From Ascochyta rabiei (lineage: Eukaryota > Ascomycota > Dothideomycetes > Pleosporales > Didymellaceae), in NCBI RefSeq assembly GCF_004011695.2, contig NC_082405.1:2231001-2295000 (forward strand): DNA of 64,000 nucleotides, written 5' to 3'. The notes under the pieces are model-generated. The model was not told the origin of the DNA. It saw only the letters and a list, made by a program, of their open reading frames with translations, and did not search any database. Shown in pieces: positions 248 through 60,197 of this stretch. The number at the start of each line of letters is the position of its first letter. The first letter of the stretch is position 1. Both the position numbers and the translations under genes were made by a program.

Positions 248-396
248 ACGGGGGACAGAGTACAAGTAGCTCTCGCTCGCCTCCATCGCTGCTTCTTCAG
301 CCTCTCCGTCTCCTTCACCCAGGCATCTCTCGTGTCTGTCGATTGACGCAGTCTCTCGTCTGTTCACTACTCACCTCATACCCACCCACCACAATC

Positions 397-4576: not shown

Positions 4577-5342
4577 GAGAATTGCTGTCTGATTACGCGT
4601 CCACTAATTAGCGCACCTTTTCAGAACGACGTTCGCATATAGGCATTATCGATAGACTGGGAGAAGTCGGGACTGGCGAGAGCGAGGTGACGGTAGTGGG
4701 CAGTACCGGAAAGGAGAGAGGTGACGCGAAGCAGGTCTTGGAGGTTAACCATGGGGGGCGTCCTGCGGCTGTTGAGCGGTACAGGCGATTGTAATCGATG
4801 GAAGAAGATGGGAGACTAACGTTTAGAGGTGAGAGTGTGCACAACCTGTTGACTTAGCTGACCGTGCTTTGTTGTTGTAGGTGAAGGCAAAGTGCGTGCG
4901 CAAGCTCCACCGGATCATCTTGTAAAGCTTCTCGCACGAAGAAATCACTGTCTTAAACCAGTTTGCATTGTCCATCTTCGATTCCACGCAAAATACCTTG
5001 CCTATCTTGCAACATACGACTAATCTGCGCCTCCCTCCTGCAGAGCAGCAAAAGCCGGACACAAAAGCCGCAACGTTCATTCAACAAAAGTGGTATGGAG
5101 GTCCTGAGTAGAGACGATAGTGCTGAGGAAGGCGAATACATAACCTTAGTCCTCTATAACTACGTATACTCAAGGGCCTTTGCTGCTCCATATTGAAGAC
5201 ATCCAGAGAGTGTAAGAGCGCCCACGAATTTACTCAGTCACCAATCGTCTACATCTCATACCCACTGCAACGATGCATCGCTAGACCTCGGATCACTCAG
5301 ACTTTTGACACTCATCGGCTTCCCTCGAGGTTGGTCTGTTCG
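4577..5342. other. intergenic, no gene seen
   Basis: It may contain the lost 5' end of the MITE-interrupted gene close to 4577-4640. Other short frames on both strands overlap one another and show no domain. Confidence 0.4.
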
Positions 5343-6822: not shown

Positions 6823-7422
6823 CTTGGAATAAGGAAAGATTAGAACTAAGCAAGGGATAATTGAATGTTTGACTCGAGACTCAACACCCGGACATTGGAT
6901 GGTATTATAGTACGTATTTCAGCCAAGCCGTAACGGGCACTCCGGAGGAGAGCAAAGCAAAACATGGGAAGCTAGTGGCCAATCAACGCCACGCGAAGAA
7001 TGCACCACGTCTCACTTTAATCTAAGAAGTACTCTAAGATGGCAACCGCCAGCTTATCCTTAGTGTATATTCGGTCCGAGGTTCACTTTTGTAGCCGGTC
7101 GCAACTCACGTGACCTTACACACAACCAATCAAACAACCGAAAACGCTACTGTCACTTGCCCTTATTTTTGCATTTAATCACGGTTTTCTTGGATCTAAT
7201 CATGACTCAGAAGTGCAGAAAAATCTTTGTTGAACTGCCGCAATGTAAAACAAGGCACCGTCTTTCCTCAGATACGCCGCTTTCCTGAGCCAAGAAATCT
7301 GTGGTTGACAACGCCAATAGGCAACCAAACCCTGACCAAGTTCTCCGCGGTCGATTGTAATGTCAGTACGTCAAATCTAGCCAACATTCTAGATTGTTCT
7401 TGCAGAGGCTCTTCAGTGTGGC
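6823..7422. other. intergenic; upstream region of the alcohol dehydrogenase gene
   Basis: Holds the promoter of the minus-strand dehydrogenase and the 3' flank of the next minus-strand gene. A TCACGTGA E-box-like palindrome lies near 7106-7113. Nothing else is supported. Confidence 0.4.
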
Positions 7423-9672: not shown

Positions 9673-10323
9673 GACGCTATCAGTCATGATCAATAGATTT
9701 CCTAGATACTGACCACTGGGATGAAGCGCTTGTGGGAGCGGAAATGGTATACGTATTGCGCGCTCCATGGTATTTCGAAGCTTCTCGGCACTGTTTGGAG
9801 GCAGCTAGTGTTGATGAGGGAGTGGTCTTGAGGTCATGGCTGATGATCAGAGGTGCTCGTCCCCTTTGCAATTTCTTGGATCACAGTGAGAAGGAAGGTG
9901 AATTGGGTCGCAAATCCAGGTCAGATTTGGTACCAACTCTCATTCACCTTCACTCGGTGACCTCACAATTGCCTAGGCATACTACCAGAATGCAGTTGAT
10001 GGCCAATTATATTTGTTCAGTACTCAAGACTTCCGATACAGCATCCGAGCGTTGGATAGCTTGTTTGCGGTTATAGTGGTGGATTGCAAAGTAGGGCAAC
10101 AATGGTTGGGCCACGATAAAGGAAGGGAATGAAGGGCGGTGAAGGCAAGTTCGTCAAACATTCGCGTAAGACCTATTTAGTAAGGCATTTGTGACTGTAA
10201 GGATTCGAGAAGAACGAAAAATGTACGTGGAACAAGGCCTGAGCAGTTACAGAGTTGATGTTACCTAGGTAGTACTTGATGTTGGTTGCCTCTGTGGATG
10301 TTATAGGTGCATGTGTTGTGCAC
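9673..10323. other. intergenic, no gene seen
   Basis: Upstream of the 714-residue gene and downstream of the carboxypeptidase gene. A 114-codon plus-strand frame (9732-10076) has no family resemblance and is not believed. Confidence 0.4.
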
Positions 10324-11837
10324 TCAATAGAAGATTGCAGGTCCTTCTCCGTCAAAGAAAGTCTCGTCCAACAGACTCAGCAGAACCTTTTGACCCACCC
10401 ACGACTCCTCGACAGTGGGTCGAATGCGCTCAGGGGGAAGCACGAAGCCAAAGTCACCAGTGTCGGGCAATTCGATGGTGTAGGACCACTCAGCTCGGCC
10501 TACAGCATAGACATGGTCAACACCCACACCGGTGGTGGGGTAAAGTACAGCACCACTGGGTCCGAAGGTATAGGTAGTCTGGTTGGTGGAATTTGCTGCA
10601 ATCTCCTGGCTCATCAAAGAGGCAGCACGTGTCCATCTGCCAAGCTCCGGCGCATAAAGGTACTCATTATGGCCGAACGGACAGAGGATAAGCTGGCTAT
10701 AGCTGTGCCAGTCGATGTAGAGCTTGATACCCTGCTCGTCACGGATGTTGCGGAGGAAGTCGTCCATCGCAGCATTCTCTGGGGCGTCACGTGGTCGTAC
10801 ACCACGGTAGGTCTGCGAGCACTCATTGTCAGAAGCTCCACGTGTATTGGCATCCCAGTTGTGCTCCCAGTTCCTGTTGATATCACGTCCGTAGCAGGTC
10901 TGATTCGCAGCAGTAGCTGGGGGCGGCTGACGGTTCTTCCGCCACAGTCTGTCTGTTGTTTGAGTATGGACAAAGCCTGCTAGAGTTAGCAGATAAACTG
11001 TGTACATAGTAGTCGAGACATACCATCCGGATTGACAATTGGAAAGATGTAGAAATCGTAGCTGTTCAGAAAGGTCTGTGTTAGATTGTCACCTGACTTG
11101 TAGCCATCGACGAGCTGCTTGGTTATGTACTCCAGTGTCTGGACACTATCAGAAATTGCCGTAGCTTGATTAAAACTCTTTTTGTTACTCACCGGTGCAA
11201 CGATCCACTCTCTAGCATGGACGGTGCCATGCCAGAGTACAGCGGGTTTCCCCGGACCATCGGCGCCCCACATATGGATACTGTGCACAACGGTTAGCCA
11301 AAGTCGTACATGGAAACGTTGGAAAGGGCAAGATGCAAAGACTCGTAAGGCTTGGTAGCGTCCAGTGGTAACTTACCCGTAGATATCACGACCTTCATAA
11401 GAAGTACCTGAGCTAGTCCAGTTCGAATTCTCAGGGAATGACTCTTGTAGCTGCTTGAAGTACTCGATATGGTCTTCGTAAGGGTGGTAGCTATCGAACC
11501 AGTCACCGCTGGTGTTGTAATCCTGTCTCTTCCAATACGACCTGACCTCAGCCTCAGAAGCGATTGAAGCTCCGAGATCTGCATGAAGAACTCGTGAGTT
11601 CAAGCCCAATGCTTCGAACCGGGCCACTTCGTGTCGAGGTATTGCAACATCGATATGGTCAGAGGCTGACTCCCACACGTTGTGAGACAGTTTTGCGAGC
11701 CTCTCCTGGACATCCGCTACATGTCTTCCGGTTTTGACATGGTAAACTTTGGTCCCTTCGTACAAACTTACGGATGGGCTACGGATGGAGACACCCGCAG
11801 CGAGGGACGCTAGAGCAAGATGAAGAACGAATCTCAT
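10324..11837 (-). CDS. secreted metallocarboxypeptidase, M14 (carboxypeptidase A type)
   Basis: Extracellular zinc exopeptidase that removes C-terminal residues; 438 residues. Exons: 11837-11377, 11280-11193, 11138-11024 and 10976-10324, all in frame. A signal peptide (MRFVLHLALASLAAGVS) is followed by an M14 propeptide up to about residue 115. Zinc ligands are His175 and Glu178 in HAREW, and His312 in DWHSYSQ. INRNW provides substrate-binding residues, the Tyr in DHVYAVG matches the catalytic-site tyrosine, and the general base is Glu390 in SYTIELPD. For intron 2 the acceptor after TCCAG is preferred because it restores the family alignment at REWIVAP-TLEYI. Several N-glycosylation sequons (NLT, NST, NQT) fit secretion. 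Specificity (A versus B type) is not resolved. Confidence 0.92.
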
Positions 11838-13508
11838 GCTTGGAGCTCACTATGAAAAGAAGCATCTCGGATGGGCATGAACCAGCGCACCTTATATATA
11901 GCAAGGAGGCAGGCCTCGACACCTAGTGTCATGTGCTCAGCCTCGCTAGCATGTTTTCGAACCTGATATGCCGCACTGGCCCATCTTGGCCTGCTTATCG
12001 CCCGAGACGATGAGGCGTGTTGCTTGCTTCGGTTATGCCGGATAGACGTAAGATATCACTGATACCGAGTGATACAGTATGAGGAGACTGTCTTGACCTG
12101 CCATATTAGACCTAGTCAAGGCATGGCATTTCTTGTGTTCTCGTAGACATCGACCGTCGAGACGTCATTTCTGCCAAGTTTAGCTCGTAGCGCCCGTGTC
12201 AGGCCTCTAAGGAAGCATCAATCCTGACATATTTGAGCGGACTTCTTGCGTTAATTTGCCGTTCATACAAGGCATGATTTGATTCTACTTGAACTAGATC
12301 GAGAGCAGTACAGCAACGGACATTTGAGACCTTTACGAACTTCCTGAAGCAGACTGGGATATGTGACGTCAAGAGCCACAGCGATGTGCTTCAGAGACTG
12401 TTACTATCTGTAACATAAAGATGTTAGCTGAAAGTACAGCAAGGCAATAGACAGTGTGTTAAGGTTGCGTGGGGTATCGAAAAGACGCGGACTGTCTTCC
12501 GGAGACGCTAAAGGTCGGGGTAGCGCTAGACCCAAAATAGTCGAGACCTTTGACTCTGCTTTGTTCCCTGCACCTACTCTACAAGCTCGTGGGCTTTCAC
12601 GGGTCACACATGGCGAAATGGTTTGGTTCACATACATAAGACACCCCACAAAACAATGATTTTTTTGGATGCCAAACTACTTATTGCATACATCACATCT
12701 GATGCGGTCTTCGATGACAACCTCCAACGATACGCAAGTGCTTAGAGTTTTACCCCACCTTAAATCCCCCCCTGGTTTTTTTTCCCAAGCGCCAACGCAT
12801 CGTCATAATTATGGGGCTATTCAAGGGTGGATCCAACTACTTCGCAGTCTTTCCAGTGGCATCAGGAAGGCGTTGTTCCCATCAGAAGCTGTATTGACTT
12901 TTCGAAAAGGCAAGATCCGGGACGCAATTCGAGATTTGCATCATGGCAACATTAGTTCTGTAGACCTGTCTGTTTGCGCCTCCAAAAATATCAAATATGT
13001 TGACAAGTCGCATCGATGACCACACGCTGTAGATCATCAAATAGAATGCGCACATACTGGTGATAGTGGAGAAAACGTCTTGAAGCGATCCTTTCACTTT
13101 GAAGTGCAACGTTATATGCCACGGCTGATCTCGAGAACCTCAGCGGCGCGAAACATCGAATCTGTTCTTGAAATCGAACAAAGGAACAGTTTTGTTCTTC
13201 GGCCCCTGACTAGCCCCCGCTCATCAATGACATAAGTCATTGTCATATCACAAAGTGAAAGAGTCTACGCGCAGTCTTTCACAATGCCTCGAAGTCCTAC
13301 GTCTATATCGAAAACCCAAGGTTTAACCCGAAACTTACTCGTTAATCCTTCTCACCACCCGAAATTTCGACTCAGACTCTCAGATCCGATCATTGCCTAG
13401 GATACAGAGTTTGACTACTGCACTTCCGAAAATCTTCCAAAAGTTCAAATTTGAGGACGGTCAATCAGGTAAGAGAAGAAGGCCGCTCTTAAGGAAATAT
13501 ATCAAGAT
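11838..13508. other. intergenic, divergent promoter region
   Basis: Between the carboxypeptidase gene (minus) and the next plus-strand gene. A hairpin-like AATGAC-ATAA-GTCATT lies near 13226-13241. No gene is supported; frames up to about 116 codons overlap on both strands. Confidence 0.4.
11892..11901 (-). promoter_or_regulatory. TATA box candidate of the carboxypeptidase gene
   Basis: TATATATA on the minus strand about 55-65 bp upstream of the start codon at 11837. This is a plausible distance for a fungal core promoter with a short 5' leader. Seen directly; function inferred. Confidence 0.4.
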
Positions 13509-15125
13509 ATGTCCCAAGAACCGAACACTAATGCACTTACGTTCGGGAACATCGAAGACATATTGGAACTTGCGCAGAAACAGTTACACGGTCGCTTCAG
13601 CGATCCAGAATACTCATATGTGCACAACGCGCTTGATCATCTCTTCTACCTTGGAATCCTAGAATGCCGCGCTCATCGAGGCAACCCAGCTCAAATTTTG
13701 AAAGAATGTTTGCAAGATGAACGAATCGTTCTGGACCGCCACAACCGACTCCAAGGCAAGATTCTTCTTCAACAAGAGATGATTTATGACGTATCTGAGA
13801 GCCCTGAGAATTTCCCACTGCGTCATCTGATCTTGGAGAAAGGCATCTCACTTCCTGCCAACAACTTCAGGCCGATTTACCATCTAGTGGATGATCCGGA
13901 GAAATTACAAGCAGCGCATAATGCTCGGAGGAATATAGCAGGGGCTACTACGCGATCTGATTCTTCAAGCCCCCGTACAATGACTGGCTATGCTCCTAAA
14001 CAGCATGCTAACAAGTCAGGGAGTAACCACGATAAGCTATACGATGCTCCATCTCCCGAGCACAGCTTTCCAGATGGAAACATTACACTTGCTGAGATTG
14101 CAGCGTTCATACCACAATCAATAAAGAGCTGGGACATCATCGACCGCATCATCTGGAACAGTGCTAAGGCGGAAGACATCGCTAAATTGTTCAACAAGCA
14201 CCGTGCGATGCCCGCCGGCGCGATCGTCAACAACACTGTTTACATGATGATGCGCGGGCAGATGTACAAGCGCAGCAAAGAAGATGTTGCCTACAAGGGT
14301 TGGACTGTTGGTACACATCAACACATAACAAAGCCGGATGAGTTCGATCCTCACAGCATAAGCGTGACTGGGTTTCGTCGGCCTCGAATTTTTGCAAATC
14401 GATCTGACAACCCTGCTGATCCCGTCCCATTCAAGGACCTCGCCAACGGTGTTGCAGTGTGGCCAGAGCACGGGGACGCTCTGGACCTGACTCGTTGCGT
14501 CTCTTGGTGCGTTGCCAACCCAGAAGCTCAGTACTTCTACCCTGTTGACTTTCAGAAGGTACTCCACGAATGCCTGGGTGGACCAGTAATTGTGAAACCT
14601 CGCAACGAAGATGCTCAAATCCTGTCACGCCTTCGAGTTGCTGGCGGGACCTACAAACCTCGAGATCGTGTGACAAAGGATCTCAGCGATGATGACACTG
14701 ATGAACACAAAAGAGACGCTGTTGCGCATTCAGAAAAACGCAAGAGAAGCACTCGCGTTGATGGATATGTAAATCGTCGCAAGACACTCTCTTCACGCTC
14801 GACCCGTGCCTCGCGCACGTCAACCGCTCGCACCACAACCGGAAACTCATCGTTTAGTTTTCAAATGGTCGATTCTGAGGATGACACAGATGACAATGCG
14901 TACCAGGGCCCGAAGCGAACAAAAAAGAACAAGGCTGCACCTCGTCGCTCAGAGCGTACGAAGAAGTCGGTACAGTACGACGATGGCGCAATGATAATCG
15001 ATGAAGAAGAAGGAGAGCTGGAGGAAGACCAGGGTACGGAGAGGGAGGCTCAGAAAAACGATAGTATTGGAGATGAGGACGACGTTGACGATGGAGAGAA
15101 CGACGAGATATACCAAGACGAGTAG
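13509..15125 (+). CDS. unrecognised protein, paralogue 2 of the local family
   Basis: Single-exon frame of 538 residues starting at an ATG in good context (AAGATATGTCC). Residues about 1-130 are mixed helical. Shared block one, ITLAEIAAFIP, is at about 192; block two, LDLTRCVSWCVANPE, is at about 325 and is followed by DFQKVL. Between them lies GFRRPRIF...PVPFKDLANGV, which matches PGYRRPASIPFRDLTMGV in the gene at 15.9 kb. From about residue 390 the protein is low-complexity: Arg/Ser-rich repeats, KRTKKNK basic runs, then a strongly acidic tail (IIDEEEGELEED to the end). Alternating basic and acidic disordered tails are common in nuclear chromatin proteins, but no known domain is recognised. 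It is in tandem with paralogue 3, 730 bp downstream. Confidence 0.8.
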   Translation: MSQEPNTNALTFGNIEDILELAQKQLHGRFSDPEYSYVHNALDHLFYLGILECRAHRGNPAQILKECLQDERIVLDRHNRLQGKILLQQEMIYDVSESPENFPLRHLILEKGISLPANNFRPIYHLVDDPEKLQAAHNARRNIAGATTRSDSSSPRTMTGYAPKQHANKSGSNHDKLYDAPSPEHSFPDGNITLAEIAAFIPQSIKSWDIIDRIIWNSAKAEDIAKLFNKHRAMPAGAIVNNTVYMMMRGQMYKRSKEDVAYKGWTVGTHQHITKPDEFDPHSISVTGFRRPRIFANRSDNPADPVPFKDLANGVAVWPEHGDALDLTRCVSWCVANPEAQYFYPVDFQKVLHECLGGPVIVKPRNEDAQILSRLRVAGGTYKPRDRVTKDLSDDDTDEHKRDAVAHSEKRKRSTRVDGYVNRRKTLSSRSTRASRTSTARTTTGNSSFSFQMVDSEDDTDDNAYQGPKRTKKNKAAPRRSERTKKSVQYDDGAMIIDEEEGELEEDQGTEREAQKNDSIGDEDDVDDGENDEIYQDE

Positions 15126-15855
15126 TACAGCTGATGTGTCACTCCCGCTGCGAGCCTAAAACTGGATGAACTACCTGCTTGCTTTTTGAGAGCTTTGCGA
15201 GGTCTTGAGACAGATTTCAGAAAGATAAAATCATCTGAAAATATCTTGTTGCTGAATGAAATGAATGATCTTGAAGATAATTGTGATCATTTAGACACAA
15301 TGATGTACAGTTGTAATACATGAGATTCAACAACCCGGTTTTCTCTACTCATTGATTTAGACTATATGCGAGGTCTCATCCAGAGCGAGATGAAGGCTGT
15401 CGTATTGTGAAAATTCCGACAGTTGCCTAAGGGTCTCTGATTGACATCTGTTCTGACCCATTAAGAAAGAATCTACATATATACATAAGACGTGCGTAAA
15501 AGGCATTTCGGCTAGAGAGACGACTAGCCTTATCTGGAATGTAAAGCCGAATAGTGAGACTACATACCAAGGTCACAATCGGGCATAGCTGCGCGTTAGT
15601 TGAACTTGGACACGATCTGAAATATACAGAGACCCTAAGTGAATGACTGTACAGGGTCGCGGCATGGCATTCTGCGATCTACCGCGACAGATCTTGAAGC
15701 TTCCTCCGGACGCACATTCACTCTGCAGTTAGAATGTCTTTCACCGGCAATCCACATTTAGATAAATGTGGTGATTTCCTTGAAACTGGGAAATTTACCA
15801 CCACCGTGATCGCAGTTGCTATCAACTTCTCAAAACCGAGTAGTTCTTTTGTACC
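15126..15855. other. intergenic, no gene seen
   Basis: Between the two tandem paralogues. A frame beginning with an ATG at 15734 overlaps the start of the next gene in another phase and may act as an upstream ORF. No further feature is supported. Confidence 0.35.
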
Positions 15856-17391
15856 ATGGTGGGTCGCCGTGAACAAACACAGAAACAGGCACCCAAAACC
15901 GCAACGCACCCCGATACCCACGACATGCAACCTTTTCGCACAAACAAAGTATCGACCATCTCCGGAGACCCTCAGAGTATCATCAATACCAATCAGGATA
16001 GTTCAGACGAGGGTCACCAGAATGGAAACATGCAATTCAACCGGACCACTTATCCCAACGCCGGAGCTTTCCAACACCTTCCAGTTCGGCGAACTCTAAG
16101 CGGAGCCCCAGCCCAGGAACATCCAAATGCCTACACGATCTTCCTGCGCGACCTTCCAGCACACTGCTATATTTTGCCGCCCGTACCGCTGAACTTCACC
16201 ATGGTGGAGCTGATCGTCTTGCTACCTAACTGGTTCAAGAACAAATCTGTCGTAACGCGGTTCATGAACAATAACCTCACGGCGGCAATTCACTTCATGA
16301 TCCTAGAAGAACATCGATATCTCCAGTTTCCTACCGGAAAGGAGAAGGAAAAGGCAAGGAAGACCATCGCGGATGAGTACCGCCGTGCAATGCGCAAAAT
16401 GATTCCATCGTGGACAAAGGTAGGGCACACAGTGCCGTTTGGCTGGGATCCCAACTCACTAGCCATGGATGGGTTTGTTCCAGATGATGTGGAAATGCCC
16501 GGGTATCGCAGGCCAGCGTCCATCCCCTTCCGTGATCTGACAATGGGGGTTCAGAAGATCCCAGAAGGTCCCCACGCAGGCGATCTCACCAGTGCTTTGC
16601 AGTTTGCACTGCAGCGCCCCGAGATTTACATGTTCCCGGAAGACTTGCCAGTGATCTTGAATCATATTGGTCCAACCAAGATTACAATAGCACATACAGA
16701 TAGGGCGATTGTTCGACACTACGACGAGATCAAGCGTGAGGGCGATCATGCCAAGAAATATCCCTCTCGACACAACGGTCTTCGTCCAACTGCAGAGGAA
16801 CTTGTTGCCCGTCTCTCTCCACATGAGACTTTTGAACGCGAGAAAATGCACACGGTGGTGCAAGCTTTGCGTCAAGGCGGTCGACCTGCAGCTACAGAGT
16901 CTCCTGAAGTATACGATCCGCCATTCATGTTCCAGCGGAGTGGGTTCAATGTTGCCGGAATGCTGCCACGGAACCAGAAGTCGGTTGTGCTTGCACAGAC
17001 TCAGCCAAACCTAGCGCACGAAGTTGATGAGCTCTTTCGTCTGCCAGCACAAGTCGAAACAGATGCAGTCGCTTATCAAACAGTCGAGAAGTCGCCAATC
17101 GTTGGGGTGGAGCGATCTAGCGAGGCGACAATGGATGCTTTACTGCGACCGTATCAGGGTACACATGATAGCCGCACGCTTAAGCTAACCGCAGGCCGAC
17201 CTTACGCTCCCAGTCAACTTCTTCGTCACTGTGTTGAAGGTAACATCGGTTTCGATGGAAGTTTCTTTGCTCAGGCTGCTCGGTACGCTCAGCGATTGGA
17301 TCAGATCGGTACACACTGGTGTGTCGAGCATGTGCCTTGGCTTGCTCAGATACTCAGTGCTGCTCAGCTTGAAGATAGAGTTGACCTCTGA
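15856..17391 (+). CDS. unrecognised protein, paralogue 3 of the local family
   Basis: Single-exon frame of 511 residues; the start ACCATGG has a strong eukaryotic context. The first 85 residues are polar and probably disordered. Block one, FTMVELIVLLP, is at about residue 113, and block two, GDLTSALQFALQRPE, at about 241, followed by DLPVIL. Between them PGYRRPASIPFRDLTMGV matches the equivalent part of the protein at 13.5 kb. Unlike paralogue 2 it lacks the basic/acidic tail and has its own C-terminal region of about 200 residues. No catalytic motif, signal peptide or membrane segment is seen. Homology to its neighbours is read by eye and would need a profile search. Confidence 0.8.
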   Translation: MVGRREQTQKQAPKTATHPDTHDMQPFRTNKVSTISGDPQSIINTNQDSSDEGHQNGNMQFNRTTYPNAGAFQHLPVRRTLSGAPAQEHPNAYTIFLRDLPAHCYILPPVPLNFTMVELIVLLPNWFKNKSVVTRFMNNNLTAAIHFMILEEHRYLQFPTGKEKEKARKTIADEYRRAMRKMIPSWTKVGHTVPFGWDPNSLAMDGFVPDDVEMPGYRRPASIPFRDLTMGVQKIPEGPHAGDLTSALQFALQRPEIYMFPEDLPVILNHIGPTKITIAHTDRAIVRHYDEIKREGDHAKKYPSRHNGLRPTAEELVARLSPHETFEREKMHTVVQALRQGGRPAATESPEVYDPPFMFQRSGFNVAGMLPRNQKSVVLAQTQPNLAHEVDELFRLPAQVETDAVAYQTVEKSPIVGVERSSEATMDALLRPYQGTHDSRTLKLTAGRPYAPSQLLRHCVEGNIGFDGSFFAQAARYAQRLDQIGTHWCVEHVPWLAQILSAAQLEDRVDL

Positions 17392-17643
17392 TGGGAGTTT
17401 GGAGGCTGTGGTTATCGAGATGGGAAGAATTTTGCGATCAGCTGGTGGAACCTCGGTTGGACTAAGTCGATTGGTGTTGTGATTGCATAGAACTCTATCG
17501 TTCGTTACGAGCTTGAAAGTGAAGGATATTGAAGTCGGTCCGAGATTATTTCCCTTGTTTCATGTTAAAAATGCTCGCCTCCAAGAGCCTACATGCATAT
17601 TCATGCTGGGTCGAGGCTTCGGGAACAGATGGACGTACTGCGA

Positions 17644-18854
17644 TCATATATGTAATGAAACATTTGATGCCGTAAGCGCCGGGTCAATCTTATCTTTGGC
17701 CGTTTTGACAGTTTCTTTGAATTCTCCGGATTGCGTTGAGGAAGTGGTTGTGCACAGATTGTGCGGTTGTGACCTCGTAGTAGAAGGAGCGATCTCAAAC
17801 AGCCTCAACAATGCTGGGAGTAGACCACGGTCGTATCGATCTCCGAGTATGTCTCGAAAATAAGAATGATCGAATGATTCCAACATGGCACGAGCAGCGA
17901 AAGCTCGTTGATTCCAGTTTTCTCGCTCCACATCATTGGCTCCATTTGCCACCTGACCGACGAAACGCTCCAAGTATTGTTGCAGCACAGCCTCGAAAAA
18001 AGAGCTGTATGTAACATCTTTCAATGGAATCCCATAGACCAGCATCAACCCAATGAGCTCCTGTAGAAATGGAACGTAGATCGTGTGGAGATCGACGATG
18101 TGGACGTGTGACATCTCGGACCGAAGGCGTGCAAGCATGGACTCGATCGGCTTGAATAACCCTAGGCTGCAGAGACGTTTTGTGAAGATGCCAAACGCAG
18201 TAGCTGTGAGCTTTGCTTGCGGTTGTGGTTCGGGTACAGAGCCACACTCTGCATCTTCTAATGTGGCTAGCTGACGCTTGATAGTTCCTGAATCACGTTT
18301 TTCGATAGAAACTGCACCCAGGATTTGTGCGACACTACAGAGTAGCTCTTCTTTCATCTCTCGTGGCACCTCGTTGTCTGGAGCGTCGAGCACGTGATTT
18401 GAAAAGTTCACAGCGCAAGTTAGATTCGACTGCATCAGCCTCAATAACTGAGGCAGGAGGCAGGAGAAGCCTGTCGAAATGCAATCGTTTAAGCCGCTTT
18501 TACAATATTCGAGCTTGAGGAGAGGTCGCAGTGCTAAGATGTCGTTGCCATTCAGCTCTGACGCATCCGCTAGCCTCTCACAGATGCGATCCAGCATCCA
18601 TGTTTGCACTTCACCATTCTTTTCATCTTTCTCCTTTAGTGGTTGAGGGTCAACACCGCCAAACGCCACTTGACCGGATTTGATGAACTGGGCTATTGTT
18701 GATTGTCTGGAAGTGGTGTCGAACCTTTAACAGTTAGTCAGGATAGGATGTGGAATAGAGAGACATCCGCTACGTACCGTTTTTGCTCGTTCTCGTCTTT
18801 GATACTGTCTTTGTCCTCCTTCAAACGCTGCTTACCCTGAGGTGAAGACGCCAT
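17644..18854 (-). CDS. unrecognised helical protein
   Basis: Two exons, 18854-18778 and 18724-17644, giving 385 residues. The first exon (MASSPQGKQRLKEDKDSIKD) is joined in frame by a 53-bp intron (GTACGT...CTGACTAAC...AAAG), so the real start lies upstream of the long open frame. The N-terminus is charged; the rest is rich in Leu and helical, without membrane segments or a signal peptide. QLIALR-like or catalytic motifs are absent. Genes on the two strands converge here: the stop lies about 250 bp from the stop of the 511-residue gene. The function is not recognised. Confidence 0.7.
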
Positions 18855-18901
18855 CGCTTGGTTGGCTGGTTTCTCTGCCGAATACGAGTGGAGCGGTATA
18901 T

Positions 18902-19381
18902 TTAGTTTTTCCTCCGCCCTGAACGGAGCGCAGCGCGCTGGATATCTTGTGGTGAAGATAGCTTTGTAGAACTAACAGTCCCCTTGTCAAGACGAGGCTT
19001 GTGACCTATTGAATTCTCATCAATGGTTTGCTGAAGGCATGTGGCACTCTCGGTCCACCGCTGACTTAAGTGATGCAACCATAATCCTTCAGGAAAGGCG
19101 CAGGTGTCACTACCACCACGGGAGCGCTGACAGAGCATGGTGCAAAATCGTGAAGAATTCTTTGCACTCATTGTGACAAGCTTGTTTGGATCGTAATTAA
19201 TCGGGCCGACTTCTTCATCCTGATGGTTCATTTCCCGAAGAATTAGGAGTGCTTCCTTCACAAGACTTGAAATAGATGCATGCGCATCTGCGGATGTGAG
19301 CTGACCTGACGGCAGTATGGAGCCGACGCTCGGAGCCGAATAACAGTGGTGACGAGTGGGTCTTGGAGTCAGGTCAACCAT
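18902..19381 (-). CDS. small hypothetical protein, doubtful
   Basis: Open frame of 159 codons with an ATG start, just upstream of the 385-residue gene on the same strand. The composition is protein-like in the middle (SLVKEALLILREMNHQDEE) but no domain or splice evidence supports it. It may be an upstream exon region or chance. Confidence 0.25.
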   Translation of the reverse strand: MVDLTPRPTRHHCYSAPSVGSILPSGQLTSADAHASISSLVKEALLILREMNHQDEEVGPINYDPNKLVTMSAKNSSRFCTMLCQRSRGGSDTCAFPEGLWLHHLSQRWTESATCLQQTIDENSIGHKPRLDKGTVSSTKLSSPQDIQRAALRSGRRKN

Positions 19382-19888
19382 TCAACGATTGGAGATACCG
19401 GGCAACAAAGGCAACAGTGGTACCATGCTTTATGTTTGTGGATGCAAGTACGATATCTGATTCGCGGAACATTTTGCTGCTGTGCCTCAAGTGCCGTGAT
19501 CAAACAAAGCGATCGCCACACCACGCAGAAAACTGGACCTCTGTCAAGGAGCAAGAACGTAGGGGTACGGTACCCGCAAAATAACCGTAAACGGTAACCT
19601 TCTCGCCGACAACTCTTGTTTGAGTCCTCTATACAGATTAGCGGATGGCGACTCAACTAAAGTAAACTCTGTTGAGTCAACATGCACGTTATTTGCAGAG
19701 GTAAGCCGTCTCACTGTTCCGGGTGTGTGGTTGGTCACCTTACGTGACCTTGACATTGGCGCCAAGAGACCGTTCCGAGAATCGAGCGTGTTTGGCTTGC
19801 TGGCGTCATTCTCCCAGTTCCTCCACTCGTCCGTCTTTCTCTTCTCGCCCACCAACGATAACAAGCTTGTTCTCTCCTCTGTTCTCTC
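19382..19888. other. intergenic, no gene seen
   Basis: Short overlapping frames on both strands only. It includes TTACGTGACC near 19740 and a GC-skewed stretch at 19790-19860. Confidence 0.35.
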
Positions 19889-20793
19889 CTACAATGCGCA
19901 CCCGCGTCCTCTCTTGGTATCAATAGCCACGTAGTTCTCAGTGGACTTCAGTATTGCAAACAGGGGATTCATTGACCATGTCTGCCATGTAACGTCATAT
20001 TTGCCAAAAACTGGCGTTGACGTAAAGCCCAAAGTAAAAGCATGCGCCGGCCAGTAGCTCTTGTCGCCGGCGCAGTCAAGCGCTGTTGGAGAAGAGAAGC
20101 GAGAAGGACCTGCTGCGCTTTGCTCAAGCCGTATGCTGGTGCGCTACTAGCAGCTTCGAGCCCCAGAATTGCCTTGCTCCTGGCGATGAGTTGTGTGAAA
20201 AGGCCTGGCGCAGTAATGCCTTCTGTACGTGCGACGTCGTAAGCAAAGTGAGCTATTGCAGAGTAGCTGTCTGTAGAGCTAGTGATCACGACTCTCGCTC
20301 TCGAACTCAGATGGGGTTCGAGGAGATGCGTCATCAAGAAGCTACCTAGGAAGTTCGTCGTGTGCATGATCTCCAGACCTTCATTCGTCTTAATTGAACT
20401 CCCAGCAGGCGGTGCTGCGATGCCAGCATTGTGCACGAGCATGTCGATCTTCGTATACTCTTGTACCCAACTTTGGCAAAAAGAATGCACGCTACCGAGG
20501 TCACCGACATCCAGGATCGTGCAAGTCACCCTTTCCCTGCTCTTGTCACCACACTTAACGACCACATGATCAACTGCTGCAGCTCCGCGGTCAGGATTGC
20601 GAAAGGCAAGGCACTTTGTCGCACCTTGGCTTGTGCGTGCGACAGCAACGGACAAGCCGATTCCACTGTTTGCGCCTGTCACAATTGCCGTTTGGCCCTT
20701 GAGATCGCGCGTCGGCACAACTTGGCGTTTGTACACGCGCGCAAAGACCAAGCAGAATAGTGACTTGGCGAGAGAGGTGTAGAAGCTGTACAT
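19889..20793 (-). pseudogene. short-chain dehydrogenase/reductase (SDR) with a frameshift
   Basis: NAD(P)-dependent oxidoreductase of the retinol-dehydrogenase/WW-oxidoreductase-like SDR type. It starts at 20793 with a hydrophobic N-terminus (YTSLAKSLFCLVFARVY). The cofactor loop TGANSGIG, the VHNAG motif, the catalytic Ser in VITSSTDS and Tyr/Lys in YGLSK are all present. After the YxxxK helix the open frame runs into unrelated sequence and stops at 19969. The neighbouring frame, however, encodes a natural continuation (SYWPAHAFTLGFTSTP, then KYDVTWQTWSMNPLFA) to a TAG at 19889-19891. Loss of one base near 20081-20083 (CG-CTT instead of CGN-CTT) explains this. It is therefore either a recent pseudogene, a sequencing error, or a protein with an altered 45-residue tail. 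Confidence 0.7.
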
Positions 20794-45888: not shown

Positions 45889-46481
45889 CTACGACGCCGA
45901 CGAGCCAGCTAACGCATCTAGCTTGTCCCCCTCCACCCTCAATCCAACCCACTCGTCCTTCTTCGCGGCACCTATTTTCTCGCTCTGGTAGAAACTCAGA
46001 CTGGGCTCGTTCCAGTCGAGACAGCTCCACTCGAGTCGCTTGCCGTCCACCTTGAGCGTCTCCTTGGCCAGCTGGCTAAGCAGGAGGGTTCCATAGCCCT
46101 TGTTGCGGTAGGCGTCCTTGATGAAGAGGTCTTCGAGGTAGATGCCAGGGACGCCGGTCCAGGTGCTGTAGTTGTAGAAGTAGAGGGCCATGCCGACGAT
46201 GGTGCCGTCTGGGTCGGTGAGGAGCAGCGTTTTCGCATAGCCCTTTGAGAATTTGTCCGGGTTGTCGGGGTCCGAGGGGTCGGCATGGGAGAGGGTGCGC
46301 GTGAGGGATTCGACCGTGGCTTCGACCGACGACGAGGCCTTTTCGTAGTCGGCGAGCTCTTGGATGAGGCCCAGGATTGTGGGGACGTCTGGGGTGGGCG
46401 TTGGTGGGTGTGGAGGCTTTGGTGTGTGGTGGACGTACCTTTGCGCGTTGCGTGACGGACGGTGGGGTTTGTGGAAGACAT
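45889..46481 (-). CDS. GNAT acetyltransferase, spermidine/spermine (diamine) acetyltransferase-like
   Basis: Acetyl-CoA-dependent N-acetyltransferase, 180 residues. Exons 46481-46439 and 46388-45889 are separated by a 50-bp intron; this gives the start SSTNPTVRHATRK-DVPTILGLIQELADYE. The longer open frame upstream of 46481 is not part of the gene. GNAT motifs: YLEDLFIKDAYRNKGYG (motif A, acetyl-CoA pyrophosphate loop, here RNKGYG), then WSCLDWNEPSLSFYQSEKIGA (motif B). The order ELADYEK ... GMALYFYNYSTWTG ... YLEDLF matches the SSAT family, which acetylates polyamines or small amines; the actual substrate is not shown. It lies 120 bp downstream of the LYR-motif gene on the same strand. Confidence 0.88.
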
Positions 46482-46601
46482 GGCGGGTCTGTGTGTGTTC
46501 GCGTTGGGTGTGACGTGAACGACAGAAGTTTGTAGCCACCAGGCGCGCCCTTTGGATGTCGCGGGGTGGCAGAATCCAGGGCCCATGTGGGGCTCCTTTC
46601 G

Positions 46602-47918
46602 TCATGCGTCACCGCCCGAGGCTACCCAGCTGGCGTGAGCCTCTGCGCGCTCTTTCTTCCACTTGTCCAAGTCGATGCGCATGGGATGCGTGGCGGGAAG
46701 CATTTCGGCGAAGAAGGGGAAGCGCATGTAGTCGCCGTCTTCGGTGCGTGGCTGCACCAACGGCCGCGTGTTCGCTTTCGTCTGGTGCGCCTTGGGTCGG
46801 AGGCCTTTGGCATCGACGTCTGCAAACAGGACGTGGTCGACGGGGGCGGTGTAGCTGACGGGCCTGATGCTTTTCATGGGCTCTCCCCAGATGGCGTTCC
46901 ACTGCTTGTGCACCGCGTCGTACTCGAGCTTGCAGGACAGGGTGAGGAGTTTGGCGTACAGGCGCTGCATGTACCTGGCGGTCAGGGCGTGTGGGCGGTC
47001 GATGCCAGCGGGGCGGTCTGCTTTGCTGAGCTTGTCGAGGGCGAGGTTGCGCTGCAGCCTCTTGGGCAGGTCGTCTTCGTCTGCGAGGGCCCTGGGCAGG
47101 TCGACGAGGGTGGCTGGCGTGCGTCGGCGGGCAAAGGCGATGCGCTGCTTGCCGGTGCTCATGGCGTGGATGCTGTCCCACTCGGCGGCAGGCAGTGCGG
47201 GCAGGAGGCGCGTCATGGTCTCGGCGTACCAGCGGCGGACGTTGTTGACCGCGCGCTCGAGGGGCATCGGTCGCTCCCACGTGTTCCGGATGGGGGCCTT
47301 GAAGTAGGGGCGCTTGATGGCGCGGCCGAGGGCCAGGGCGTTGTGGGACTGGGAGGCGAGGACGGCGCGCAGACGCGGGTACTGCTTGGAGATGGCGATG
47401 GTGTGGGTGCCGTGGGTGCCGTGGGCGGCGGGGGCTTCGAAGTACTGCAGACAGGGCGCGGTGCTGTGGTAGAGCAGCTGCAGCGGCGGCGGGGCCTCGG
47501 GCCAGGCGGGGTCTGGCTTCAGCAGGTCGTGCAGCAGCGCGTGCTTGCGGCGGCCCAGACGGCCGTAGGTGAACCACAGCACCTTTTCGAGACAGGGGCC
47601 CTCGCCCTGGTTGGCGCGGCGCAGGAGGTTCAGGCCCTTGTGCGCCTGGCGCTGCTGCTGGGCGGTGCGGGCGCGGATGACGGCGAGGTGGCGGCGCTTG
47701 AAGGCGCGGTGGCGGTGCTTTGCGAGCGCGAGCACGTCGAACGAGGCCGTGGCATGGTCGGCCGGCTGGTAGGCCCTGAAGCGGGCGACGGCGTAGCGGC
47801 GGAAGTAGTCGCGGGCGGCGGCGTCGGGCAGGTACGAGGCCTCGCGCAGGAGGGCGCGCAGCAGGCGGAGCGACTTTGCCTGCGAGGGCGAGGCGGTGGG
47901 CGAGGGCCAGGCAGACAT
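46602..47918 (-). CDS. LYR-motif (complex I LYR-like) protein
   Basis: 438 residues, single exon, very GC-rich. The N-terminus carries a LYR-type helix, SLRLLRALLREASYLPD followed by YFRRYAVARFRAY, as in proteins that bind the mitochondrial acyl carrier protein and help assemble Fe-S or respiratory complexes. The arrangement (N-terminal LYR domain, then a long Arg/Lys-rich region with WxxP and RRWY motifs) recalls the fungal Cup1-like LYR proteins; this assignment is tentative. It is probably mitochondrial, although no clear presequence is visible before the LYR helix. It shares a divergent 494-bp promoter with the APSES gene. Long frames on the other strand here are by-products of GC-rich third codon positions. 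Confidence 0.8.
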   Translation of the reverse strand: MSAWPSPTASPSQAKSLRLLRALLREASYLPDAAARDYFRRYAVARFRAYQPADHATASFDVLALAKHRHRAFKRRHLAVIRARTAQQQRQAHKGLNLLRRANQGEGPCLEKVLWFTYGRLGRRKHALLHDLLKPDPAWPEAPPPLQLLYHSTAPCLQYFEAPAAHGTHGTHTIAISKQYPRLRAVLASQSHNALALGRAIKRPYFKAPIRNTWERPMPLERAVNNVRRWYAETMTRLLPALPAAEWDSIHAMSTGKQRIAFARRRTPATLVDLPRALADEDDLPKRLQRNLALDKLSKADRPAGIDRPHALTARYMQRLYAKLLTLSCKLEYDAVHKQWNAIWGEPMKSIRPVSYTAPVDHVLFADVDAKGLRPKAHQTKANTRPLVQPRTEDGDYMRFPFFAEMLPATHPMRIDLDKWKKERAEAHASWVASGGDA

Positions 47919-48412
47919 GGACCTTCACCCTGGCGGCCACGACGACGATGCACGTTGGCGGCGCAGCGGTGGTGGGTGGAGGGTGCCGTGTGGGCGACGT
48001 CGCGCAATTGGCTCGGCGGGCGACGCGTGCACGCCGCCGGACGCGAAGCGCTCCACAACGGACGGCTGGCCATCGACTCCCCGCATCGCAGCAGCAGACG
48101 ACGACGACGACGACGGCGACCCTCGAGACTCGAAGCGCGACCGACTGCGACCGACTGACTGCGACCGACTGCGCCCGACTGCGACCGGCTGCGACACGAC
48201 TGCGCTTCTTCGCCGGCGGCAGCCACTCGGCCTCCCTCTGCCCACCACCCACCGTCGCCCACCACCCACCGTCGCCCACCACCGTCGCCCACCACCGTCG
48301 CCCACCACCGTCGCCCACCACCGTCGCCCACCGCCTCGCCCATGCGCACCAGCTAGCACAGACTGCACACCCGGCACACCCGGCACACCCGGCACCGCAC
48401 CGCACGCCCGCA
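47919..48412. promoter_or_regulatory. divergent promoter with GC-rich minisatellite
   Basis: Between the LYR gene (minus) and the APSES gene (plus). Positions about 48240-48335 carry tandem units of CGTCGCCCACCAC (13 bp, plus variants lengthened by CACC). Positions about 48140-48200 carry repeats of CTGCGACCGA. Such arrays can bind regulators or change length, but no function is shown. Confidence 0.55.
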
Positions 48413-51185
48413 ATGCAGCAGGTCGCCCGCTCGTTTCCCGACCCGCAGCCCGTGTACCAGCAGTCGCCCGCCCACGCGCCCGCGCCCTCGCCCTCGCACT
48501 CGCACTCGGCCCTCATGGCCGCCCCCGGCTTCAACCGCTCCTTCTCCGACGCCAGCGGGTACGCGCAGCAGCCACACGCGCAGCCACACGCGCAGCCACA
48601 CGCGCAGCCACACGCACACGCCCACGCCCACGCCCAGGCGCAAGCACACGCCCACGCACACACACACGCCCACGCCCACGCCATGGACAAGCCGCAGATC
48701 TACACGGCCGTCTACTCGGGCGTCTCCGTCTACGAGATGGAGGTCAACCGCGTCGCCGTCATGCGCCGCCGCTCCGACGGCTGGCTCAATGCCACGCAGA
48801 TCCTCAAGGTCGCCGGCGTCGACAAGGGCAAGCGCACAAAGGTGCTCGAGAAGGAGATCCTCACCGGCGAGCACGAAAAGGTCCAGGGCGGCTACGGCAA
48901 GTACCAGGGCACCTGGATCAACTACCGCCGCGGCCGCGAGTTCTGCCGCCAGTACGGCGTCGAGGACCTCCTGCGCCCGCTGCTCGACTACGACATCAGC
49001 GCAGAGGGCACCCAGGGCCACGGCCTTGACACCCCGACCAAGGAGCAGGCCATGGCCGCCAACCGCAAGCGCTTCTACACCCAGACCATCGACGCCCGTC
49101 AGCCCAGCCAGAGCCTCGGCGGCACCTTCTTCTCCAACATCTCCTCCACCGCCACCAGCGCCCTGGCCGCCATGAACAAGGTCGCCCGCCTCCACTCCCC
49201 GGCCCCGCCCCGCCCCGCCAGCGCCTCGCAGCCCCGCCGCTCCACCACCCGCCCCTCGCAGCCCCCGCCCCTCCCCAGCCAGGACTCGTTCCGCACCAGC
49301 AGCCAGCACAGCATCCACAGCCTGGCCTCGGACCGCAGCTTCAGCGCCCACAACACCCACCCCCACCACAGCAACAACACCCACAACACCCACAACACCC
49401 ACACCGACTCGGCCTACGCCACCGGCGCCGATGACACCCAAGAGCCCCCCAGCAAGCGCCTGCGCGACGACTCCTTCTCGCAGCACCGCCCAAACGCCGC
49501 CGACGACCTGCTGCACGACCACGGCTCGCCCACCGAGCCCAGCGACTCCTTCTACCAGCACCAGACCGGCCACCACATCAGCCTCCCGGACGGCCAGGTC
49601 CCCAGCGCCCTGCCGCCCCTGCCCTTCCCCGACACCAAGCTCAACGAGGAGAAGCAGGCCATGCTGACCGACCTCTTCGCCGACCAGACCCGCACAGACT
49701 TCACCAACCACCCCGCCATACTGCACCTCTCCGGCGCAGACCTCGACATGCCCATCGACAACAGCTCCAACACGGCCCTGCACTGGGCCGCCACCCTGGC
49801 CCGCGTCTCCCTCATGCGCCTGCTCGTCTCCAAAGGCGCAAACATGTTCAGAGGGAGCGCCTCGGGCCAGACCCCGCTCATGAGCGCCGTCTCCGTCAAC
49901 AACAGCCTCGACCATAGCTGCTTCCCAGAAACGCTCGAGATCCTCGCGCCGCTCATCGAGCTCCGCGACACCCAGGGCCGCACCATCCTGCACCACATCG
50001 CCGTCACGTGCGCCATCAAGGGCCGCGCCGCATCCAGCAAGTACTACCTCGAAGCCCTGCTCGAGTACCTCGTGCGCAGCAACATCGGCGCCCACCAGAT
50101 CCCCTCTTTCCTCGAGAACAGCAACTACCCAAAGCCAATAGGGCTCATGAGGTTCATGCAAGAGATGGTCAACGCCCGCGACAAGGCGGGCAACACGGCC
50201 CTGAACCTCGCCGCCCGGATAGGAAACCGCAACATCATCTCGCAGCTCCTCGAGGTGCAGGCCGACCCCACCATCCCCAACCACAAAGGCACGCGGCCGG
50301 TTGATTTTGGCGTCGGCAGCGACCTGCACGGCGACGCCGCGGACACGGCGCTCTCTGCCGCCAGCCCGTCTAAAGGAAAGGTGCCGCTGAGCAAGGTGGA
50401 AGAAACAAGTCGGGAGATCCAGCCTCGTGAGTCCTTTCACGGCCTCACATACTCGTCTAACCACAATTCCAGTCATGAACGGCATCCTCCAGTCCGCCTC
50501 GATGCAGTTCACGCAAGAAGCGCGCCTGAAGCAAGACCTGATCGACCAGACAAACTCCACCATCTCCACCCTCTCCTCGCTCCAGAAATCAGAACAGTCG
50601 CGCCTCGAAACCCTGCGGTCACGTCTGCGACAGCGCCAGGACCGCGCAAAACGCATCGCCAACCTCAAGCGCTGGCTCGAGCCGCAGCGGCACATGCTCG
50701 CCGCGACCAACGCCGCCACAGACCTGACGCAACGGCGGGACGTTGGGTACGCCGACGCCGAGGGCGCAGGAGTCCTCGTGCAGGAATCCGACCTCCCCGA
50801 AGAAGTCCGACGAGAAGGCGAGCACCTCATCCGGCAAGCCTCTGGCGGGCCGTCGTACCTCAGCACGCCCCTCTCGCTGCCTCCCGCGGCCACGCTCTCA
50901 CCCTCACTCACCTCCATACCGACGGTTGCACTACGGCAGAGGGTCGAGGTTTACACGCAGGCCAACGCTTCTCTACTGCAACGCTCAAGACAGCTCAAGG
51001 ACAAGGACGGGCAGCTCGAGGCCATGTTCCGCCAGGTGGTGTGTCTGTGCACCAACGTCCAGGAGGATCGGATCGACGAGGTGCTGCCCTCGTTGGTCGC
51101 CGCATTAGACAGCGATCCACTAGACGGGGTGGAGGTCGGGCGGGTACGTGAGTTCCTTAGGAAAGTAGAAGGCGTAGAAGCCTAA
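48413..51185 (+). CDS. APSES transcription factor, Mbp1/Swi4-like (MBF/SBF subunit)
   Basis: Nuclear DNA-binding subunit of the G1/S cell-cycle regulator. Exons 48413-50426 and 50473-51185 (intron CTC|GTGAGT...TCTAACC...TTCCAG) give 908 residues. An N-terminal extension of 90 residues is rich in His, Ala, Gln and Pro (QPHA and HAHA repeats). A second ATG at 48683 (residue 91, MDKPQIYTAVYSG) corresponds to the usual Mbp1 start. The APSES/KilA-N domain follows at about 94-200 (RRSDGWLNATQILKVAG, KVQGGYGKYQGTWI). A Ser/Pro-rich linker precedes ankyrin repeats (NTALHWAATLARVSLMRLL; GQTPLMSAV; GRTILHHIA; GNTALNLAARIGN). The C-terminal coiled coil (SSLQKSEQSRLETLRSRLRQ) would bind Swi6. The gene ends only about 65 bp before mutated repeat DNA. 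Confidence 0.93.
51078..51136 (+). repeat. source copy of a 59-bp duplicated segment (in the APSES gene tail)
   Basis: This coding segment, near the C-terminus of the APSES protein (EVLPSLVAALDSDPLDGVEV), reappears in mutated form at 51252-51310. Confidence 0.85.
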
Positions 51186-58111: not shown

Positions 58112-60197
58112 AGAATCACCTACGGTGGTAAAAGGGTAGGGGTTAGGTAGGGGTAGGGTACATCACGTGATGTACCCCTACCCTACCCTACCCCTACCCA
58201 CGCTAATTCTATACTAAGAGGGTAGGAGTAGGGTAGGGTCTATATAGGGTATAGGTAGGGGTAGGGTAGGGTCTATATAGGGTACAGGTAGGGGTAGGGT
58301 AGGGTCTATATAGGGTAGAGGTAGAGGTAGGGTAGGGTCTACATAGGGTATAGGTAGAAGTTAGGTAGGGGTTAGGTAGAGGTTATATAGGGTAGGTGTC
58401 AGCGTCTAACTCTTTACCTAAAGTAGTTATTATAAAACTTTGTACTACAAAAATGTAGAGTAAAACAAGCTCTTTTAAATAGTCTATATACTGTAATATT
58501 CTAATTAAAACTAGTAGAGTTTTAGTAGTTATTGTATAAATCTTAGGTTATTACTACATAGGCCTACGTAACAACTACTCTAGCTCTACTAGTTTTAATT
58601 AGAATCTTACAGAATATAGACTGTTTAAAAGCGCTCTCCTTATTCTATATCTTTCTAGTACAAAATTTCTTAATAGTTGCTTTACTGTAAGAGTTACAGG
58701 TACGCTGGCAAAAGGGTAGGGGGTACCCTGGGGTTGGGTAGGGGTTAGGTACGGTCTGCACGGACCAGGGGTAGGGGTAGGGTAGGGGTAGGGTCTATAT
58801 AGGGTAGGGGTAGGGTAGGGTCTGCACAGACGTTAGGTAGAGGTAGGGTAGGGGTACCTCTAGCGTGGGGTAGGGGTAGGGTACAGTCTGCACGGACCAG
58901 GGGTAGGGGTAGGGTAGAGTAGGGTTTAGGGTAGGGTCTGTAGGGCCCGTAGGTGTCAGCGTGTAACTCTTTAACTAAAGCAGGTATTGTAAAACTTTGT
59001 ACTACAGAAATGTAGAGCAAGACAGGCTCCTTCAAACGGTGTATATACCGTGAGATTCCGATTAAAGCTGGTAGAGCTAGAGCAGTTGTTACGTAGGCCT
59101 ACGTTGTGACAACCTAGGATTTACACAACAACTGCTGTAACTCTATCAATTCTGATCCGAATCTCACAGTATATAGATCGTTCAAAAGCGCTTGCTTTGC
59201 TCTACATTTCTGTAGTACAAAGTTTTGTAATACCTGCTTTAGTTAAAGAGTTACACGCCAACACCTACCCTACCCAACCCCTACCCAACCCCTACCTAAC
59301 CCCTACCTAACCCCTACCTGTACCCCATGTAGACCCTACCCTACCCCTACCTCTACCCCATGTGGACCCTACCCTACCCCTACCTCTACCCCATGTAGAC
59401 CCTACCCTACCCCTACCTGTACCCCATGTAGACCCTACCCTACCCCTACCCTCTTAGCATAGAATTAGCGTAGGTAGGGGTAGGGTAGGGTAGGGGTACA
59501 TCACGTAATGTACCCTACCCCTACCTAACCCCTACCCTTTTGCCACTGTAGTTACAGGTAGGGGTAGAGATAGGGAAGAGGTAGGCCTAAGTAGGGCCTG
59601 TAGGTGTTAGCATCTAACACCTTAACTAAAGTAGTTATTATAAAACTTTGTACTATAAAATTATAGAGTAAGACAAGCGCTTTTAAATAGTCTATATACT
59701 ATAAGATTCTAATTAGAACTAGTAGAGCTAGAGTAGTTGTTACGTAGGCCTACGTAGTAACAACCTAGGATTTACATAATAACTGCTGTAACTCTACTAG
59801 TTCTAATTAGGATCTTATAGTATATAGACTATTTAAAAGTACTTATTATATTCTATATTTTTGTAGTATAAAGTTTTATAATAATTGCTTTAGTTAAAGA
59901 GTTACACACTAACACCTACAGGCCCTACTTAGGCCTACCTCTTCTCTTCAGACCTTACCCTAAACCCTACCCTACCCTACCCCTACTTCTGGTCTATGCA
60001 GACTATACCCTACCCCTACCCTACGCTAGAGGTACCTCTACCCTACCCCTACCTAACATCTGTGCAGACTCTACCCTACCCCTACCCTATATAGACCCTA
60101 CCCCTACCCTACCTCTACCCCTAGTCCGTGCAGACTATACCTAACCCCTACCTAACCCCAGGGTACCCCCTACCCTTTTGCTAGCGTAGAATCACCT
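58112..60197. mobile_element. foldback-like element with telomere-like arms, 10-bp target duplication (outer copy)
   Basis: The element proper is 58122-60187 (2,066 bp, or about 1,208 bp without the nested copy and one duplication). Identical decamers AGAATCACCT flank it at 58112-58121 and 60188-60197. Its ends are ACGGTGGTAAAAGGGTAGGG and, read inward from the right, ACGCTAGCAAAAGGGTAGGG. Both arms are several hundred bp of irregular TAGGG/TAGGGG arrays (CCCTA on the right) with interspersed GGGTCTATATAG and GTCTGCACGGACC motifs. Two internal palindromic modules (centres 58556-58569 and 59742-59755) lie between the arms. There is no coding capacity. A 10-bp duplication is in the range of Mutator-like or foldback elements. 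I do not recognise a named family. Confidence 0.82.
58692..59559. mobile_element. foldback-like element, nested inner copy with 10-bp target duplication
   Basis: The element proper is 58702-59549 (848 bp), flanked by identical AGTTACAGGT at 58692-58701 and 59550-59559. Its ends are ACGCTGGCAAAAGGGTAGGG and, inward from the right, ACAGTGGCAAAAGGGTAGGG. It is nearly a complete palindrome of two arms of about 420 bp around ACGTAGGCCTACGT (59091-59104). Its left arm matches the right arm of the outer copy inverted (GTACCCTGGGGTT, CTCTAGCGT landmarks); its right arm matches the outer left arm (ACGTGATGTACCCC, GCTAATTCTAT landmarks). It is thus the same family in the opposite orientation, with one instead of two palindromic modules, and less mutated. 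Confidence 0.83.

Follow-up and report, generated by a model that had tools for sequence, protein, structure and literature searches.

The block at positions 58121-60188 of the window, by which we mean the whole 64,000-nucleotide stretch of Ascochyta rabiei DNA analysed here, is with high probability a nested pair of non-autonomous, MITE-like hAT elements from a single A. rabiei family, both of them apparently dead and of the 'passenger' type. An earlier note on this DNA had taken the block for one non-autonomous Mutator-like or foldback transposon. Its view of a transposed, non-autonomous, multi-copy unit with precise insertion sites agrees with our results, whereas its choice of superfamily does not, given an 8-bp duplication, hAT relatives and short ends of two types.

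The outer element (58121..60188, plus strand), of the two-core type, has its A-type end on the left and its B-type end on the right, and is bounded by two copies of the 8-bp target duplication GAATCACC (58113..58120 and 60189..60196). Its left part (58121..58400, plus strand) is made up of the A-type end (TACGGTGGTAAAAGGGTAGGGG...) and a TAGGG arm that contains 33-bp units and a palindrome centred on CACGTG, and matches the A ends of two long relatives, L009 and L010, which in turn match those of L069 and L070, the arm of L070 being interrupted by other DNA. The right part (59946..60188, minus strand), a B-type arm and end with 66-bp units that contain GGTCTGCACGGACC-like palindromes and with the terminus ...GCTAGCGTA, likewise matches the B ends of L009 and L010. 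Inverted-repeat detection placed palindromic core 1, a member of the core family, at 58407..58696, and core 2, together with neighbouring spacer, at 59572..59947. The inner element, a one-core element of 850 bp, occupies 58701..59550 on the minus strand, inverted with respect to the outer one (B end at 58701, A end at 59550); its own palindromic core, found by the same detection and also of the core family, lies at 58949..59268. This element is flanked by its own 8-bp duplication, GTTACAGG, at 58693..58700, where core 1 meets the spacer that separates the two outer cores, and at 59551..59558; it thus adjoins that spacer. The palindromic core announced in the earlier note is therefore real but plural, and the single block is two elements.

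Removal of the insert and one inner duplication shortens the outer element from 2068 bp to 1210 bp, which is also the length of the two-core elements in L019 and L041. Eighteen other elements of 1.0-1.3 kb were aligned across the joined inner-insertion site; 14 of them are gap-free, covering 117-130 of 130 bp, and the other four (L014, L033, L051 and L055) show small gaps, L014 being a one-core element.

The host of the block is a degraded Copia element, as had been proposed, with an RVT_2 match on its right side (E 2.4e-10) and, on its left side, an SH3-like match (E 2.5e-5) that falls under the curated cut-off of that profile. The outer site is empty in all seven Copia paralogues examined within the genome, gap-free over 244 bp and at 94.7-95.9% identity. 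These empty sites cannot separate a duplication of 8 bp from one of 10 bp, the 8-bp length resting instead on base counts in 43 pairs of ends, given below. Elsewhere in the window, positions 46000-50000 are markedly GC-rich (67-70%) and hold many short tandem repeats, and an AT-rich transposon island begins near 52 kb, a few kb from that stretch. One protein encoded by the window is 98% identical to A. rabiei EKO05_0000675.

The direct repeats AGAATCACCT from which a 10-bp duplication had been read are indeed present, at 58112-58121 and 60188-60197. In 43 pairs collected from the genome as 8-mers skipping one base per side, however, the base just inside the duplication is T on the left and A on the right in 43/43 cases each, whereas the base beyond the 8-mer is mixed (left A17 C9 T9 G8; right T20 C10 A8 G5). 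Thus, the terminal inverted repeat (TIR) starts with TACG and the duplication measures 8 bp; the 10-bp repeat of the window copy is due to chance, its flanking A and T matching bases of the element. The termini themselves are inverted, as had been noted, but they do not follow one consensus and their inverted repeat is only 22 bp long. Two end types can be distinguished, A (TACGGTGGC; consensus TACGGTGGCAAAAGGGTAGGGG) and B (TACGCTGGC; the same with C at position 5), with 29 and 72 exact occurrences in the genome, respectively. Over the first 22 bp, position 5 is the sole difference between the ends of an element, which diverge from position 23 (five elements); beyond that point, A/B identity drops to chance except for one TAGGG stretch (three elements). 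Other copies, for which the earlier note had suggested a search with the 20-bp terminus, are abundant: this terminus has 222 genome matches at up to three mismatches, compared with five for a reversed control.

Among 49 distinct A-B pairs in the fetched loci, the 8-bp duplication is perfect in 36, has one mismatch in six, two in one, and three or more in six. Duplications with at most one mismatch, of the hAT type, therefore accompany 42/49 pairs; other copies do carry the duplications that had been expected of them, at 8 rather than 10 bp. For this count, 11 internal pseudo-ends were dropped from 60 rows, ends lacking a partner in their own locus were left out, and the best-matching partner was used wherever several were possible. 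L056 contributes one more pair with a perfect duplication, left uncounted because its A end has mutated too far. Some counted pairs carry little weight: L067 has a TAGGG-like duplication, and L052 and L053 look like one segmentally duplicated copy. The latter two lie on C8, near 1.949 and 1.884 Mb; each holds a 701-bp copy, and they share the duplication CTTATACC and their flanks in inverted orientation. About 65 kb separates them, in what is probably an inverted segmental duplication close to a contig end. In a pair search that ignored end type, one A and one B end were found in 42/42 elements, and no A-A or B-B pair with a duplication occurred in the fetched loci. The precise sites, the duplications in 42/49 pairs and the empty sites together uphold the notion of a transposed unit as opposed to a chromosome-end fusion.

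The earlier note had also suggested looking for a larger relative with the same ends and a MULE-type transposase. Four relatives with these ends exist (L009, L010, L069 and L070; 6.6-8.7 kb), but their transposase is of the hAT type. Their ends and arms are also found in the small copies, their main aligned blocks agree with one another at 91.6-93.7%, and all four carry a point-mutated hAT transposase region and a histone-H3-like region. In L069, the hAT dimerisation domain (PF05699) scores 29.4 bits against a cut-off of 21.4, and the transposase region is 52% alike over 425 aa to the Boeremia exigua protein P0001, while the Pyrenophora tritici-repentis protein P0003 aligns at element positions 4072-4773 and 4799-6169, in two successive frames. 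The three matches listed by a protein search with the transposase, in which the best 7987 candidates (those sharing most words) were scored, are this Boeremia protein and two Pyrenophora hAT proteins, P0002 and P0003. The DDE and CxxH motifs belong to the hAT catalytic core; where P0001 has DNASNN and CLAH, the heavily mutated L069 reads NNASNN and CLTH. The CxxH motif of hAT transposases is also described in PMC4763223. When compared by eye, at least 16 of 44 genomic PF05699 places have a B end within about 1 kb downstream, each of these with 3-6 stops in the domain. The gene model of Boeremia P0001 joins a hAT and a DDE_1 transposase. Separately, L010 and L070 hold an extra insertion of 1.9 kb, pogo-like and DDE_1-matching (element positions 4669-6537 and 3522-5389, respectively); the two insertions are 75% alike, lie in opposite orientation and have TIRs of about 70 bp.

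The decay of the transposase genes bears the marks of repeat-induced point mutation (RIP). A 701-bp transposase probe has 39 genome matches, and six places matching the hAT part of P0001 contain 31-41 stops each, all of them TAG or TAA, as RIP would leave. The TpA/ApT ratio is 1.9 in L069 compared with 0.66 in window positions 1-20000, and transitions make up 76% of the pairwise differences among 18 small copies. An intact family transposase was not seen among the best 36 of 1178 candidates, many of which are pogo-type. Since RIP-type stops occur in each transposase region whose stops were counted, the family looks dead in this genome. At G000:C2:1909712-1926432, which contains L022, two long family members stand in mirror arrangement with equal stop counts in their transposase and histone fragments, which suggests a palindromic segmental duplication. 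At G000:C1:1389237-1389476, a hAT dimerisation domain lies within a stop-free open frame of 655 aa; it belongs to another hAT gene, which may be intact or domesticated.

Mutator-like elements make 9-11-bp duplications, and foldback elements have long, internally repetitive terminal inverted repeats. The window copy taken by itself, with its perfect 10-bp repeat and long inverted repeats, invites a reading as one or the other, and MULE domains are present at 11 places in the genome. Nevertheless, the innermost base on each side of the 10-mer belongs to the element, the duplication is 8 bp, and L069 yielded a hAT domain but no MULE domain in its three forward frames or in the minus frames of 600-3700. 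The long inverted repeats stem from the inverted nested copy, the ends of a single element diverging after 22 bp, and no foldback-type repeat was found within one element. We accordingly give a Mutator-like or foldback origin next to no credence. Some features count against hAT membership as well. The target sites prefer T at position 3 and A at position 6 (40/72 each; 36 sites, both strands counted), which differs from the nTnnnnAn of hobo/Ac-type hAT elements, and six of the 49 pairs lack a recognisable duplication. Relative to the hAT end consensus YARNG, the A end, TACGG, fits at Y, A and the fifth G but not at its third base, C, and the B end, TACGC, fits less.

A histone-H3-like gene accompanies a hAT transposase and a second ORF in the published 'transduplicating' H3L-hAT of P. 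tritici-repentis (Manning et al., 2013; PMC3538342). Because that element has an H3-like gene, a histone search was run here as a test, and fragments were found near the transposases. The genome contains 21 PF00125 places, 14 of which are fragments with four or more TAG/TAA stops; the place at C4:959085, with two stops and far from the family, was left out of this count. For thirteen of the 14, a family transposase is encoded on the opposite strand at a distance of 3.5-11 kb; the fourteenth, C8:827487, is 70.8 kb from one. The fragment of L070 is identical to the genome's own H3 at 26/60 positions (E 5e-9, in a search of four sequences); at the DNA level the region is 92-94% alike in L009, L010 and L069; in these three copies the histone match as such stays below detection (E 0.17-0.53). 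A Pfam search of the minus frames of L069:600-3700 gave no histone match, the fragments having come from the genome-wide family search. As for the second ORF, L070 alone has a match to the N-terminus of P0002 (E 3e-7), located upstream of its transposase and pointing to an upstream ORF there; this N-terminus is probably the Pyrenophora second ORF, judging from the fusion described in PMC3538342. An H3-like gene, a second ORF and a hAT transposase were thus all found between the TIRs, the second ORF, seen in L070 only, being the weak part.

Based on these comparisons, the A. rabiei long relatives are built from the same components as the H3L 'transduplicating' hAT of P. tritici-repentis, as far as the published account of the latter goes (PMC3538342). 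Both have the three genes between TIRs, at lengths of about 5.6 kb in P. tritici-repentis and 6.6 kb in A. rabiei without later insertions, and short derivatives exist for both. The differences are that the A. rabiei copies inspected are RIP-degraded, unlike H3L-hAT; that the A. rabiei family has TAGGG arrays and A/B ends, of which the available text of the H3L-hAT description makes no mention; and that the small A. rabiei copies carry a palindromic core, whereas the short H3L-hAT derivatives carry a fusion gene (PMC3538342).

All genes are missing from the small elements whereas both arms are retained, a pattern that a cis requirement for the arms would predict; where the long relatives have their genes, the small ones hold one or two copies of an unrelated 290-bp palindrome. 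A blastn search with this core against the four long copies returned nothing at E 1e-3, so the idea of the core as a piece of the long element was dropped. The core as an independent MITE was also set aside, at least one family end being present in 34/34 loci tested (L029-L062, picked for their cores); these are 34 of 40 fetched loci. The core search scored the best 40 of 92 candidates, so cores free of family ends may exist.

The arms are irregular TAGGG/TAGGGG arrays, as had been reported, with 90 TAGGG/CCCTA in the block compared with 79 in the rest of the window, and 15 predicted G-quadruplex-type motifs compared with 10. In the A arms (e.g. window 58155-58170), the palindrome TACATCACGTGATGTA lies between TAGGG and CCCTA stretches; among 42 elements it is exact in 30, has CAGGTG in the middle in three, and occurs in neither form exactly in nine. 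Successive TAGGG units are spaced by 5, 6 or 11 bp in at least 75 of 117 cases (both arms, four elements), a spacing that would set many TAGGG sites on one helical face, which is suggestive only. Most likely, the arms are transposase-binding subterminal repeats, by analogy with the BED domains of Hermes and the subterminal repeats of Kat1 (PMC10368747; PMC4763223). A transposase multimer would have bound the arrays, with their spacings of 5, 6 and 11 bp (the last of which corresponds to roughly one turn of the helix), brought an A end together with a B end, excised the element, and inserted it with an 8-bp stagger; the small copies would have been mobilised in trans.

The resemblance to telomeres raises the question of whether telomere DNA was captured, or has decayed, to give the arms, or whether the arms work by way of telomere-binding proteins of the host. 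The genome's telomere is TTAGGG, found as arrays at 14 of 15 sampled contig ends, the fifteenth reading N, and TAGGG resembles it. The telomere-like repeats of the earlier note are there as TAGGG arrays, but canonical units are nearly absent: the block holds two TTAGGG and no tandem TTAGGG, and both arms of five elements examined, on either strand, hold none. This lack speaks against a true telomere identity of the arms, whose likeness is one of letters and not of identity, and a telomere fusion was rejected on the same counts. Within 100 kb of contig ends, exact B ends reach roughly double their expected number (15/70 against 7.3), but show no excess within 50 kb (2/70 against 3.7; two of the 72 B ends were omitted, their contig size not being known), and subtelomeric targeting was discarded accordingly. 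Moreover, the Oxytricha TBE elements illustrate that telomere-like TIRs are possible in true transposons (PMC12242761). A telomeric origin or action of the arms is, altogether, improbable. TAGGG arrays might instead have been favoured because, having no CpA or TpG, they escape RIP, so that binding sites outlive dead genes. The B arm of L004 is depleted in these dinucleotides (5.5 CpA+TpG per 100, against 12.2, sd 1.7, when shuffled) and GC reaches 55-61% in the B-side terminal 300 bp of the four long copies, compared with 32.5% in the interior of L069. The A arm of L004, however, is not significantly depleted (9.7 against 12.1, sd 2.3). Mutation does reach parts of the arms, since units that stand as CCACATGGGG in less mutated copies have become CTATATAGGG in the window; a single family, moreover, amounts to a single event. 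Hence we regard selection through RIP escape as doubtful. It is rather far-fetched, finally, that arrays and H3-like gene act jointly, the arrays nucleating a distinctive state of chromatin or nucleoprotein, made up of transposase, an H3 variant and host factors of the Myb/telomere type, that marks the ends, with the CpA-poor arrays escaping RIP and small copies staying mobilisable after the genes die.

Binding of the arms by the transposase, the reading that we prefer, has parallels in known hAT systems. The Hermes and Kat1 papers name 8-bp duplications as a hAT feature, which the A. rabiei family shares (PMC10368747; PMC4763223). The Hermes transposase binds subterminal repeats, its BED domains doing so at one end only, and the Hermes ends are non-equivalent, with TIRs that differ by two swapped base pairs (PMC10368747); for Kat1, the authors speculate that subterminal repeats enhance activity (PMC4763223). 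Subterminal repeats are few and short in both, with six hexamers between the Kat1 TIRs, whereas the A. rabiei family has telomere-like arrays of 200-300 bp. ToxhAT is likewise a hAT-like element of Pleosporales in RIP-affected repeat islands, but it measures 14.3 kb, has 74-bp TIRs, carries ToxA, and has no duplications that could be found (PMC6737239). The Oxytricha TBE transposons share telomere-like repeats at their ends, and differ in being Tc1/mariner elements with an ANT duplication and the ciliate-type repeat G4T4 (PMC12242761).

The family seems not to be named in the ArME14 genome paper, the available text of which lists seven MITE sequences and does not mention 'hAT' (PMC7341154), and the accessible parts of a 2024 A. 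rabiei population paper mention neither hAT nor MITE (PMC11893274). In the literature, judged mostly by titles and abstracts and with later H3L papers possibly in existence, we found no hAT family for which TAGGG arms are described. These results place histone-carrying, H3L-type hAT elements in a second genus and tie them to a swarm of small non-autonomous copies. They also describe a naturally occurring element in which the subterminal arrays are telomere-like and very long and two unlike ends are consistently paired; the A. rabiei arms offer a direct substrate for testing how hAT transposases read repeats of this kind and whether RIP has a part in shaping the ends of transposons.
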